Positions 7,226-27,681 of a DNA stretch of 27,784 nt are shown here, piece by piece (within the stretch, counting starts at the first letter, position 1; the number at the start of each line of letters is the position of its first letter). Both the position numbers and the translations under genes were made by a program. Origin of the DNA: a virus; the IMG/VR virus record IMGVR_UViG_3300037628_000090, positions 1-27,784 of that record; one strand, given 5' to 3'. Under the pieces are notes generated by a model, which was not told where the DNA came from, did not search any database, and saw only the letters and a program-made list of their open reading frames with translations.

Positions 7226-7924
7226 TTATGGGTTAAGTGGGTTGAATTGTGGAACATTGACAGGGCTTTGGCCGCCTACTTGATTGAATTGACCAGCCGG
7301 AGGTTGTGTTGAATTAAATAAGCCGCTTTGAAATAGCCCTGTTGTTACCCCTGCAATACCTTGCTGTAATGCTGCGTTTTGATTTAGAATACCAGTTGCA
7401 CGAGCATTGCCGCCAGCTATTAATGCGTTTCCAATATTGCCTGATGTTTGCTGCCCAAATTGACCAATAGAGGTCGCAGCGCTTTGCCCTTGTCCTGCCA
7501 GTTGACCTAATCGACCAAACTGATTTTGTAAGTCTTGCTGAGCAAAACCTACACCTTGCTGAACTAAAGCAGACCTAACATTGCCACCACCTAAACCGCC
7601 AATAGCTGAAGAGTTGCGTAATAGGTTTTTTTGTGCCCTATCTCTTAGGAATTGCTGCCCAGGGGATTGCTGCATTGCTGCAAACGCTGCCGCCTGAGCG
7701 TCCTCACCTGAAAGACCTAGCAAAGCTTGCTGTTGCTCTCTTGCTAAATTACCAGCCTCTATAGATGGATCTAAACTCGACTGAGTCGCGTCAAATTGCC
7801 GTTGTTGCTCTGCAATACTGGCATTTGTAGCTCGTGTTTGTGCTTTTCTCGCCTTACTTGCTGAGCTAGCTGCTACTCCGCCAGCTATCACTGCGCCGCC
7901 TATTATCGCTGCTGCTACACCCAT
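7226..7924 (-). CDS. DNA transfer protein, P22 gp7-like
   Basis: A 232-residue protein, nearly the length of P22 gp7 (229). Residues 2-20 (GVAAAIIGGAVIAGGVAA) are a small-residue hydrophobic helix with glycine-zipper spacing, as expected for a protein that joins a trans-envelope channel after ejection. A charged helix (SKARKAQTRATNASIAEQQ) and a Gln/Gly/Ala-rich low-complexity body follow, with repeated GQFGQQ and NIGNALIAGGN-type segments. ATG 7924 lies inside the end of the upstream sulfotransferase gene (ten-base overlap), so it is translated in the same late message. Gene order gp7, gp20, gp16 is conserved in P22-like phages. Confidence 0.8.
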   Translation of the reverse strand: MGVAAAIIGGAVIAGGVAASSASKARKAQTRATNASIAEQQRQFDATQSSLDPSIEAGNLAREQQQALLGLSGEDAQAAAFAAMQQSPGQQFLRDRAQKNLLRNSSAIGGLGGGNVRSALVQQGVGFAQQDLQNQFGRLGQLAGQGQSAATSIGQFGQQTSGNIGNALIAGGNARATGILNQNAALQQGIAGVTTGLFQSGLFNSTQPPAGQFNQVGGQSPVNVPQFNPLNP

Positions 7925-8565
7925 AAATCACCTGTATTACTCTGGTTTTCTAATGAATATGAAAAACGCTCTAAGTCACACCCCCACATATCCTTAACTA
8001 TTTCGATAGTTTCATCATTATAATATTCACTATAATGTTTGTGGTTAGTTCCGTTTAGCGATTCAAGATTATCGGCATCAAACATACCGCTTAGTTCGTT
8101 TTTGTTTATAAAGTCGTTAACGCCCTCTTTTAAATTCTCAAACTTAATTACTGTGAAGTTATCTTTTTCAGCATGTTCTATAAATTCAACCTGTGTCATT
8201 GCGTGGAAAAAATTATTATCTTTGCTTAAATCGTAAAACCCTCTGGCAAAATTTAAGAATTCGCTAGTATCTATATCGTATATTTTACCAAGATCGTACT
8301 TCTTAGCAAAAAAATACATAGAAACAAGTCTGTCGTATGGGTTTCTAACAACCGCTAAAACAGGTTTTTTAAGGATGCCATGCCCTAAATTAACCTCTAG
8401 TTCCGATATGCTTTGATGTGAAGATTCAAATATATTTAGATGCCTAGGATTGTCTCCGCTAAGATATTCGTTCCTTACTGTGTTTGAATCCCCAAAAAAT
8501 GCGTAAATAGATGTGCTGGCATTCTTTGGAATACGAATAAATGTTACTAGTTTCTCTATAGCCAT
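7915..8565 (-). CDS. Sulfotransferase-family protein
   Basis: A 216-residue protein with both cofactor signatures of PAPS-dependent sulfotransferases. The 5'-phosphosulfate loop is RIPKNASTSIYAFF at 11-24, with Lys14 and the Ser/Thr group. The 3'-phosphate site is VVRNPYDRLVSMYFF at 72-86, with Arg74 and Ser82 in the usual places. Such enzymes move sulfate from PAPS to a hydroxyl, often on a carbohydrate; the acceptor cannot be read from sequence. The gene overlaps its neighbours by ten bases at both ends, so it is fixed in the virion operon between the gp14-like and gp7-like genes. Its codons are visibly more AT-rich than the flanking structural genes, suggesting later acquisition. No signal peptide is visible, so it should act in the infected cell's cytoplasm. 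Confidence 0.85.
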   Translation of the reverse strand: MAIEKLVTFIRIPKNASTSIYAFFGDSNTVRNEYLSGDNPRHLNIFESSHQSISELEVNLGHGILKKPVLAVVRNPYDRLVSMYFFAKKYDLGKIYDIDTSEFLNFARGFYDLSKDNNFFHAMTQVEFIEHAEKDNFTVIKFENLKEGVNDFINKNELSGMFDADNLESLNGTNHKHYSEYYNDETIEIVKDMWGCDLERFSYSLENQSNTGDLWV

Positions 8566-15309: not shown

Positions 15310-15339
15310 ATTCTACTACATATTAGTGAGAATGACCAA
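15310..15339 (-). promoter_or_regulatory. Possible promoter for scaffold and coat
   Basis: TTGGTC (15339-15334), an 18-base spacer, then TAGAAT (15315-15310; five of six to consensus). It lies after the cassette terminator and about 60 bases ahead of the scaffold start, a position where a promoter would be useful. The -35 half is weak. Confidence 0.3.
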
Positions 15340-15354
15340 TAAGGTATTTTTGGC

Positions 15355-15380
15355 AATAAAAAAGAGCCGTTAAGCTCTTT
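15355..15380 (-). terminator. Rho-independent terminator closing the three-gene cassette
   Basis: On the - strand AAAGAGC, a six-base loop and GCTCTTT form a perfect seven-pair stem that runs into TTTATT. It lies 60 bases after the last cassette gene (stop at 15440). Confidence 0.85.
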
Positions 15381-15439
15381 ATAGTATTGCTTGTATTGAT
15401 AGGCATACACCTATAAGAATAATAATAAATCTAAATTTT

Positions 15440-15646
15440 TTATCGCTCATAATACTTATCTTTACCAAAAGGGAATACAGGTTCGCTTTTCATTACGACC
15501 TCTATGGTTTCCTTAGTCATCAAGTAAAACTCCTTAACAACAGTTCCGTTAGTTTTTAACTGCTGAATGATAACACCGTTAGCCTCGGCCTCTTCTAACA
15601 CCTCGGCGCGCTTGTGAGTTAAGTCGCTGCTTTTATATGTTTTCAT
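15440..15646 (-). CDS. Small Phd/YefM-antitoxin-like protein (tentative)
   Basis: A 68-residue protein, last in the three-gene cassette; its ATG follows the upstream stop directly (TAAATG). The segment KTYKSSDLTHKRAEVLEEAE, then a Gly and VIIQQ, resembles the N-terminal fold of Phd/YefM antitoxins: strand, helix with Arg-x-x-x-Leu, strand. The typical Arg-Arg-x-Pro after the second strand is absent. There is no toxin-like partner with a Doc or RelE motif next to it, so it may be an orphan antitoxin-like regulator or an unrelated small protein. Function unproven. Confidence 0.6.
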   Translation of the reverse strand: MKTYKSSDLTHKRAEVLEEAEANGVIIQQLKTNGTVVKEFYLMTKETIEVVMKSEPVFPFGKDKYYER

Positions 15647-16072
15647 TTAATTTCTCGCTATGTGAAATATGATGGTATCCATTACATCGTGCATTTGATT
15701 TCTATCTAGCTCAAAGCCTAGTAACTTTAACTTACCTCTAATGTCATCATTGGCAACTTGGCAACCAAGAGAGAATAACTCACCATCAATAGGCGACCAT
15801 AATATAGGGTCTTGCATTGCTTGCGCAGGCTTAGTTAGCTTATAATCAACATCAAGACTAGCTTTAAGGTAATAACAATCATCGTCACCTCTTTTGTATT
15901 CATTACCGTTAGTGGTTGCTAAATCATTACACCCCATAGTAAGGACGGCAACAGCCATCCTATTAAGTCCTGACTGTTTTGATATTGGCGTTTCTCTTGT
16001 GTCAACGGTCTTTTCAACATCAAACCCTAGCGCATCAATAAGCGCGTCTAATTTCTTTTCGGTGTTGCTCAT
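15647..16072 (-). CDS. Hypothetical cassette protein, 141 residues
   Basis: Starts at ATG 16072, which overlaps the upstream TGA as ATGA and has GGGGAAAG as ribosome site; a TTG 15 bases earlier opens the same frame but is less likely. The protein begins with an amphipathic helix (TEKKLDALIDALGFDVEK), has an Asp/Tyr-rich middle (RGDDDCYYLKASLDVDYK) and ends with DVMDTIIFHIARN. No family is recognised. It is the middle gene of an independently transcribed unit inside the late operon, so it may be expressed in the prophage state or early in infection. Confidence 0.75.
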   Translation of the reverse strand: MSNTEKKLDALIDALGFDVEKTVDTRETPISKQSGLNRMAVAVLTMGCNDLATTNGNEYKRGDDDCYYLKASLDVDYKLTKPAQAMQDPILWSPIDGELFSLGCQVANDDIRGKLKLLGFELDRNQMHDVMDTIIFHIARN

Positions 16073-16389
16073 GACTTTCCCCACCAAAGCATTGCATTAG
16101 CAATACTCATTTGTGTAATTATAATGCTTACTCCTGTATTAACAGTGTCCTGACGGGTCTCTTGCTTTGCTCTGGCTAGGTCACGCGTTAGCTTTAGCTC
16201 CCGATTCTCAGCCTCTAATTTACGTATATATTCAAACCTTTCTGATTGGGTCATACTTTCTTTATTATTACTCGCATCTATTATCACTAAAAGCCTGCAC
16301 AGGTCGTGATTAGTCAGCCCTACATCAAGCCCTCTACTCACCTTTGTTTTAAGCTCGGAAATTAGCATTTTATCGCTTACTGTGCTCAC
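16069..16389 (-). CDS. Hypothetical coiled-coil cassette protein
   Basis: A 106-residue protein, first gene of the cassette, starting at GTG 16389 after AAGGGG. Residues 48-78 (SERFEYIRKLEAENRELKLT and on) form a strongly charged coiled coil; the last 20 residues (VSIIITQMSIANAMLWW) are hydrophobic and could lie on or in a membrane. No catalytic motif is visible. It is coupled to the next gene by ATGA overlap. Confidence 0.7.
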   Translation of the reverse strand: MSTVSDKMLISELKTKVSRGLDVGLTNHDLCRLLVIIDASNNKESMTQSERFEYIRKLEAENRELKLTRDLARAKQETRQDTVNTGVSIIITQMSIANAMLWWGKS

Positions 16390-16403
16390 TATAACACCCC
16401 TTA

Positions 16404-16421
16404 ATTAAAATTAGTTTTAAT
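16404..16421. promoter_or_regulatory. Inverted repeat over the cassette promoter start site (putative operator)
   Basis: ATTAAAA, four bases, TTTTAAT: perfect seven-base arms next to the -10 box and covering the expected transcription start (about 16415). Such placement suits a repressor site. The AT-rich setting makes chance more likely than for a GC-containing palindrome. Confidence 0.4.
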
Positions 16422-16450
16422 AATATAGTAAAATAAAAGGCGGTTGTCAA
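16422..16450 (-). promoter_or_regulatory. Sigma70 promoter of the three-gene cassette
   Basis: TTGACA (16450-16445), exactly 17 bases, TATATT (16427-16422): a consensus -35 and five of six at -10, the best promoter match I found in the window. The GTG start of the first cassette gene is 33 bases beyond the -10 box. The -35 lies within the loop of the terminator that follows the portal gene. Confidence 0.8.
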
Positions 16451-16457
16451 TCGCCTT
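16428..16457 (-). terminator. Terminator after portal gene, overlapping the cassette promoter
   Basis: On the - strand AAGGCG, a nine-base loop and CGCCTT make a six-pair GC-containing stem, followed by TTATTTTA. It begins seven bases after the portal stop. The stem is short and the T-run interrupted, so it is probably partial, which would let late transcription continue to scaffold and coat. Confidence 0.65.
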
Positions 16458-26775: not shown

Positions 26776-26979
26776 ATGAATATCCCAGAATCATTAGAAA
26801 AAGCTTACAAGATGAATGACACGAAGCAAATCAAACTAGCTGCCGGCATTAATGTTACCCGTTCTTATGTGTCAGCTATAGAAAATAGTGTCAAGCAAGC
26901 ACCAATAGGTTTTATTGTAAAGTGCGCGTTATTCTTTAACATGAAAGTAAGCGAGTTTATCGCGTTAGGAGAAGATTAA
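26776..26979 (+). CDS. Small XRE-type HTH regulator (Cro-like)
   Basis: A 67-residue protein from ATG 26776 after AAAAGGTG. Residues 16-60 form an HTH_3-type domain: TKQIKLAAGINVTRSYVSAI is the helix-turn-helix (Gly24 at the turn), followed by PIGFIVKCALFFNMKVSEFI, which packs below it. It is a one-domain protein like Cro, without a cleavable or oligomerisation domain. It probably binds the control region directly upstream and governs the divergent promoters. No C1-type repressor is encoded next to it on the opposite strand. Confidence 0.82.
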   Translation: MNIPESLEKAYKMNDTKQIKLAAGINVTRSYVSAIENSVKQAPIGFIVKCALFFNMKVSEFIALGED

Positions 26980-27042: not shown

Positions 27043-27681
27043 ATGAATATTATTGATACAGTAGAATATTATGGCGGCTCTTACTTTGTAAGTGGAAAGC
27101 ATGAAGAGCACCATACACACATTGTATATAGCAACCTTAGCAACAGCCCTTACAGTGTTTACGCCTCAGATATTGGCTCAAACCCTATTATTTGCACTAT
27201 CGAGGAATACAATAAATGCATAGACATGTTAATAGGTGACCCATTAAAATTAATTATATGGAAAGAAAGCAATAACCTTAACCTTGATAAGCCAGTTACA
27301 TCACCTATTTACACGCAATCAATGGCTGATGCAGGCGTATTGCCGTTAGTAGGTATGGAGTGTTTAATGTCTTTAGGTGAAGAAGTTTGGTTTAAATATC
27401 GAGTAGATTTCATAGGCAAGGTTTACACTGTTGGATTTTGGTTTGATAAAAATAGAGAGGCTTCATTTGGATTGCAAGGCGTAATATTCAAACCACTAAC
27501 CCCACCTATAGAGCTAGTAGATGGTGAAGCGTACCAATTCAAAGCCACGCTACCCAACAAGATAGAAACGGTTAACGGTGTATTTCGTGGAACAAACCGT
27601 AGAATGTATACTCCTTATGGAGATTACGATTTAGATGAATGCACCAACATTAAACCCCTTACTGTAGAAGGTGAATCATAA
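27043..27681 (+). CDS. Hypothetical early phage protein
   Basis: A 212-residue protein of the rightward operon. It has two parts: residues 1-75, with VEYYGGSYFVSGKHEEHHT and CTIEEYNKCIDMLIG, and residues 85-140, with YTQSMADAGVLPLVGMECLM and EVWFKYRVDFIGK. The second part is a segment I associate with many accessory phage proteins of unknown function. A third portion after residue 155 (VDGEAYQFKATL, FRGTNRRMYT) may be a small beta domain. ATG 27043 is preceded by GGACGGG; the stop overlaps the next start (TAATG). Confidence 0.7.
   Translation: MNIIDTVEYYGGSYFVSGKHEEHHTHIVYSNLSNSPYSVYASDIGSNPIICTIEEYNKCIDMLIGDPLKLIIWKESNNLNLDKPVTSPIYTQSMADAGVLPLVGMECLMSLGEEVWFKYRVDFIGKVYTVGFWFDKNREASFGLQGVIFKPLTPPIELVDGEAYQFKATLPNKIETVNGVFRGTNRRMYTPYGDYDLDECTNIKPLTVEGES

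Follow-up and report, generated by a model that had tools for sequence, protein, structure and literature searches.

What is an additional operon doing between the portal and scaffold genes of a phage, and how is it controlled? The window, a 27.8 kb IMG/VR virus record, has the minus-strand gene order TerL, portal, cassette, scaffold and coat, and the genes around the cassette are P22-type (portal, PF16510, 2e-169; scaffold, phrog_8865, 6e-33; coat, PF11651). All cassette features lie on the minus strand between portal and scaffold (Table 1). A sequence-only reading of this DNA had described a near-consensus promoter, a palindrome spanning the presumed start site, three coupled genes and a dedicated terminator, and each of these is present; the open reading frames P1, P2 and P3 overlap or directly abut one another. 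Searches of the window with Rfam and for tRNAs gave no match.

Table 1 Features of the cassette and its boundaries in the window, and loci of one cargo family in related records
Feature	Position	Strand	Basis or description
Terminator hairpin AAGGCG-ATTGACAAC-CGCCTT with T-tract, after the portal gene; loop contains the -35 box	16437..16457	-	Stem covariation
Sigma70-type promoter TTGACA-17-TATATT; spacer is the terminator T-tract	16422..16450	-	11/12 matches
Candidate operator, the palindrome TTAAAA-CTAA-TTTTAA spanning the presumed start site	16405..16420	-	Arms covary; sequence follows P3-head type
P1, GTG start, 106 aa	16069..16389	-	Charged helical segment, hydrophobic C terminus
P2, ATG start overlapping the P1 stop, 141 aa	15647..16072	-	Alignment A3, relatives
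P3, 68 aa, starting immediately downstream of the P2 stop	15440..15646	-	Predicted Phd/YefM-fold head (residues 1-42), variable tail
Possible fourth gene MSDKKFRFIIILIGVCLSIQAIL, a hydrophobic micro-ORF of 23 aa that overlaps the P3 stop	15379..15450	-	Putative; peak hydropathy 2.07
Cassette terminator AAAGAGC-TTAACG-GCTCTTT with T-run	15361..15380	-	Sequence; relatives
Separate scaffold promoter TGGTCA-17-TAGAAT	15310..15338	-	Also in relatives
LKFFGAKK cargo family loci	L008 4648-5001; L016 4338-4715; L031 2486-2806; L034 7254-7592; L039 4801-5127		

The block had been taken for a self-contained, moron-like insertion rather than a set of head genes conserved in all relatives, and comparison with related phages bears this out. 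Among 17 related portals, the cassette is present in eight and absent in nine, and on the portal tree (n = 17) its distribution is unclustered and requires at least five gains or losses. Portal relatives at 58–84% identity have either the cassette or a portal–scaffold gap of only ~110–240 bp, and in six loci (L035, L036, L038, L041, L044 and L045) portal and scaffold adjoin directly. Because related portals occur without it, the extra operon is accessory and not a head gene, and we rejected assignment of its products as conserved head proteins. Cassettes of the same kind are also found in phages with portals only 25–30% alike to that of the window; another phage type has them either immediately ahead of the terminase genes (L010 and L031) or behind a different portal (L015). 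L040 has an apparently decayed cassette, reduced to the terminator and the end of a last gene. Many contigs among the related records are fragments. A different insert, HNH/homing-endonuclease-like by eye, occupies the same portal–scaffold gap in L042 (7094-7892).

A location next to scaffold, together with the Q/G/A-rich C termini encoded by several first genes, could mean that the products are late proteins of the virion, such as internal head proteins or proteins that are ejected, with their genes sited there for co-expression. This we regard as extremely improbable, given that the cassette is missing from close relatives, has its own promoter with an operator, and sits beside terminase in the other phage type.

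Both ends of the unit are marked by hairpins of ~24 nt that are unlike each other, and there is one cassette per record. Cassette 3′ ends form one conserved class of terminator, with TTAAC in the loop and a TTTTTTATTGCC tail. Downstream, a scaffold promoter of the form TTGTCAA..TAGTATAAT is found in relatives with or without the cassette. As judged from sequence, the cassette has its own promoter as well as its own terminator. The promoter is the best match of six regional sites and is kept in more than 20 related cassettes.

A feature missing from the sequence-only reading is that the -35 box TTGACA forms the loop of the terminator hairpin that serves the portal transcript. The 5′ element consists, in order, of the terminator hairpin with the -35 in its loop, the T-tract as spacer, the -10 and, immediately 3′ of this, the palindrome, with the consensus AAAGGCAT-TTGACAC-ATGCCTTT-TATTTTAC-TATATT-A-TTAAAA-CTAA-TTTTAA-TTAAGG. 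Across relatives the hairpin stem varies in sequence while retaining its pairing (93.1% over 20 distinct rows), with 38 doubly changed cells; none of 2,000 shuffles scored as high, and the shuffle mean was 68.5%. We scanned for the geometry of terminator, -35 in loop and -10, a search blind to both the palindrome and the proteins, and obtained one site in the window and ~22 further distinct sites in ~600 kb of related, partly overlapping loci, all of these further sites standing before P3 cassettes. Since the sites are confined to P3 cassettes and 1.8 Mb of shuffled sequence gave a single match, the arrangement is not due to chance. We found no precedent for a fused terminator–promoter element in the open-access literature, which is weak evidence of novelty.

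The arms of the palindrome also change together across relatives. An RNA hairpin at the 5′ end was rejected as an explanation: the window palindrome TTAAAACTAATTTTAA has no stable RNA fold, and the GC-richer variants of L002 and L050 fold weakly as RNA. A DNA operator is therefore more likely than an RNA element. When IMG/VR was searched at the DNA level with the -10 and palindrome, using no protein, P3 was encoded in all ten loci recovered, eight of which were previously known through P3, leaving an independent result of two out of two; these two new loci (L087 and L089) both encode diverged P3 proteins.

P3 is the only gene present in all 28 cassettes, a count that is not independent because the cassettes were gathered mostly through P3. 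The sequence-only reading had likened the last gene to Phd/YefM, and structure prediction supports this. An AF2 model has pLDDT >90 over most of the head, a predicted E-H-H-E-E-H order, and Foldseek top matches to Phd (4zlx and 3hs2, both Phd of phage P1) and YefM (2a6q). The best match has E 0.038, probability 1.00 and TMt 0.74, the modest E being as expected for 68 residues, and PDB ranks 1–20 are all toxin–antitoxin entries, nearly all of them Phd/YefM. At the sequence level P3 remains below the cut-off for PF02604 (best E 0.0074, alignment A1), and a P3 profile gave chance matches only against PDB sequences. The model supports P3 being a Phd/YefM-fold DNA-binding protein. Conservation lies in the first ~42 residues (mean identity 0.71, pN/pS 0.26); of 378 pairs of tails, 369 are unrelated. 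Heads and tails are exchanged: the identical heads of L009 and L010 are joined to unrelated tails, and the different heads of L002 and L016 bear tails that are nearly identical.

The Phd/YefM fold, the coupled genes and the putative autoregulatory palindrome are all traits of a type II toxin–antitoxin module, in which P1 or P2 would be the toxin and P3 the antitoxin. However, no toxin family is matched in any cassette and P3 has no constant partner: P1 is unique to the window, P2 is missing from half of the cassettes, and near-identical P3 tails stand beside different neighbours in L002, L003 and L016. The earlier suggestion of an antitoxin acting with P1 or P2 is therefore not supported, and we judge a complete module very improbable. 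We likewise rejected a tail-specific downstream partner, as L018, L022 and L062 share a downstream gene and have different tails, and the shared tail of L002, L003 and L016 also argues against it.

P3 might instead be an orphan phage antitoxin, with the variable tail mainly neutralizing host toxins and operator binding being secondary. Phd-type antitoxins neutralize their toxin through the C-terminal part, and neutralizing elements are interchangeable (PMC10440598); antitoxin mimics are known from phages (PMC11481870); and variation among P3 tails, which are swapped, is extreme. Against this, many tails are only 10–20 residues long, and it is the head and operator that are conserved, not the tail. 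We consider such a primary role rather unlikely, although it would be compatible with autorepression by P3.

Autorepression draws on how operator and P3 head vary together. A search with P2 yielded P3 subtypes that had not been used before. The palindrome CTGA-CTAA-TCAG stands in all three loci with type II heads (SKKPS; L050, L109 and L116) and in none of 25 others (p 3e-4), and that of L117 reads TGAA-CTAA-TTCA. L116 and L008 are identical from the -35 to the -10, and this near-identity of promoters bearing operators of type I and type II would offer a natural test of specificity. Distances between P3 heads correlate with those between operators (Mantel r 0.63–0.64; 0 and 1 of 5,000 permutations), a correlation that rests on few lineages and is carried by the divergent heads; within type I it disappears (r 0.10 without type II heads and L117). 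By contrast, P3-head distance shows no correlation with that of the adjoining promoter (r -0.06), and for the P2 N-cap against the operator r is 0. Because the palindrome sequence follows the P3 head and not the adjoining promoter, P3 is best read as the autorepressor of the cassette, which supports the earlier proposal of autoregulation by the small protein. L016 has a standard P3 head and only half a palindrome. P2-type cassettes without P3 (L098, L099, L103, L111 and L112) encode small putative HTH proteins, with notable Pfam support only in L112 (HTH_3, E 1e-4), and a further P3-less cassette, L106, has the sole member that passes the PF02604 Phd/YefM cut-off. These sequences look as if the regulator were swappable between cassettes. 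Repeated TATAGTGTCAA-like motifs precede the putative HTH genes in L098 and L112.

The remaining genes turn over extensively. P2 is found in 14 of 28 cassettes, every other family besides P3 in at most five, and 44 of 56 cassette gene families are singletons. P1 is among these, making it cargo unique to the phage of the window; its charged helical segment is probably a coiled-coil, and it has no family match in Pfam, PHROGs or PADLOC. In P2 the N-cap (M.NTEKKLDALIDALGFDVE) and a DYK(V/L)TK motif are conserved, and the middle and C-terminal segments are swappable (alignment A3, relatives). Its structure model is poor (pLDDT 65), making a fold search from the model meaningless. Family searches with P1, P2 and P3 found nothing, and P2 and P3 have no relative among GenBank phages. 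The micro-ORF, likewise absent from the sequence-only reading, is possibly a fourth gene encoding a 23-residue membrane peptide; several relatives have small membrane proteins in its place. Cargo with family matches in relatives comprises a PagP-like protein (L006), which would suit surface modification, an HNH endonuclease (L016) and a zinc ribbon. Searches of Pfam, PHROGs and PADLOC detected no known anti-defence family among the cargo and no known anti-CRISPR in the operon.

Another cargo protein recurs in L098, L100, L108, L111, L031 and L010; it is small and zinc-ribbon-like, with paired cysteines and the motif SAPR/SAPK..GN. The LKFFGAKK family (Table 1) has a conserved LKFFGAKK..FISCYAKKPRI N terminus and a variable Q/G-rich C terminus. 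A short MADAG.LP.VGMEC motif is common to window 27043-27681 (+) and L020 343-1068, and because it is shared with this window gene, cassette cargo may be drawn from other phage regions.

The sequence-only reading envisaged that a lysogen would express the cassette independently of the lytic programme, with superinfection exclusion or anti-abortive infection as a possible function. A classical prophage-expressed moron for exclusion or fitness would account for the promoter–gene–terminator unit, its patchy distribution and the PagP-like cargo. However, 20 related records, some of them fragmentary, contain no tyrosine or serine integrase, and GTDB genome contigs, searched with a single short pattern, contain no P3 relative. 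The phages look virulent, expression in a lysogen is not supported by gene content, and we hold this explanation to be decidedly unlikely. With regard to function, anti-defence is at least as likely as exclusion or anti-abortive infection.

We conclude that the cassette is probably an autonomous, autoregulated accessory operon with shuffled cargo, the turnover of which fits action against varying host targets, most likely counter-defence; this functional assignment is drawn only from layout and turnover. As the -35 sits in the terminator loop, we propose that the 5′ element would terminate the portal transcript and initiate that of the cassette within ~60 bp. On phage entry, host sigma70 polymerase would produce a burst of cargo (P1, P2 and possibly the micro-peptide). 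The same mRNA would also yield P3, and this would build up until a P3 dimer binds the start-site palindrome through its Phd/YefM head and shuts the promoter. The second terminator and scaffold's own promoter would insulate the head genes. Recombination exchanges cargo, P2 segments and P3 tails and leaves the 5′ element and P3 head in place.

Aca proteins repress acr operons through promoter inverted repeats (PMC9410906), and the cassette resembles acr–aca in having variable small cargo, a constant downstream gene for a putative DNA-binding autoregulator and an inverted repeat, here the palindrome, in the core promoter. It differs in that the Aca proteins in PMC9410906 are all HTH, whereas P3 has a predicted Phd fold and possible HTH regulators occur only in P3-less relatives; moreover, the terminator is fused to the promoter, small genes may follow the regulator, and no known Acr was matched in Pfam, PHROGs or PADLOC. 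Anti-defence genes of archaeal viruses were found through shared regulatory sequence (PMC11065993) and similarly combine a conserved promoter or regulator sequence with fast-changing small genes and a candidate own repressor, although the present cassettes are from bacterial tailed phages, with one operon per record and a sigma70 promoter inside a terminator. P3 is predicted to share with Phd/YefM antitoxins the beta-alpha-alpha-beta-beta-alpha fold and a short N-terminal DNA-binding head, and it has a variable C-tail and a candidate palindromic operator as they do, but it has no toxin partner, falls below the Pfam cut-off and follows unrelated cargo families. Like phage morons, the cassette places extra genes, with a promoter and a terminator of their own, between two genes that are neighbours in relatives; unlike them, it is apparently under its own repressor in phages that look virulent, and forms a modular family rather than a single gene. 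The simplest account is that its control logic would be that of acr–aca and the archaeal-virus genes, reached with a different fold.

More tentatively, and against somewhat unfavourable odds, these cassettes may constitute a previously undescribed mobile family in which a fused terminator–promoter–operator and a Phd-fold autorepressor form a chassis for shuffled counter-defence genes and segments, with P3 as a non-HTH 'Aca' that could serve as bait for many unknown counter-defence proteins. If the reading as an autoregulated accessory operon is right, P3 and its operator would offer a way to search for phage accessory proteins that evolve too fast to be found by homology, much as aca genes did for anti-CRISPRs. 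Viruses would then also provide an example of the Phd/YefM fold serving simply to autorepress an operon, and of a terminator whose loop supplies the -35 of the promoter that follows it.

Elsewhere in the window, 26797-26958 (+) has an above-cut-off match to HTH_3 (Cro/CI-like), with no integrase present, and a sulfotransferase-like gene at 7915-8565 (-) (PF03567, 5.6e-9) lies among the late genes and is possibly also accessory.
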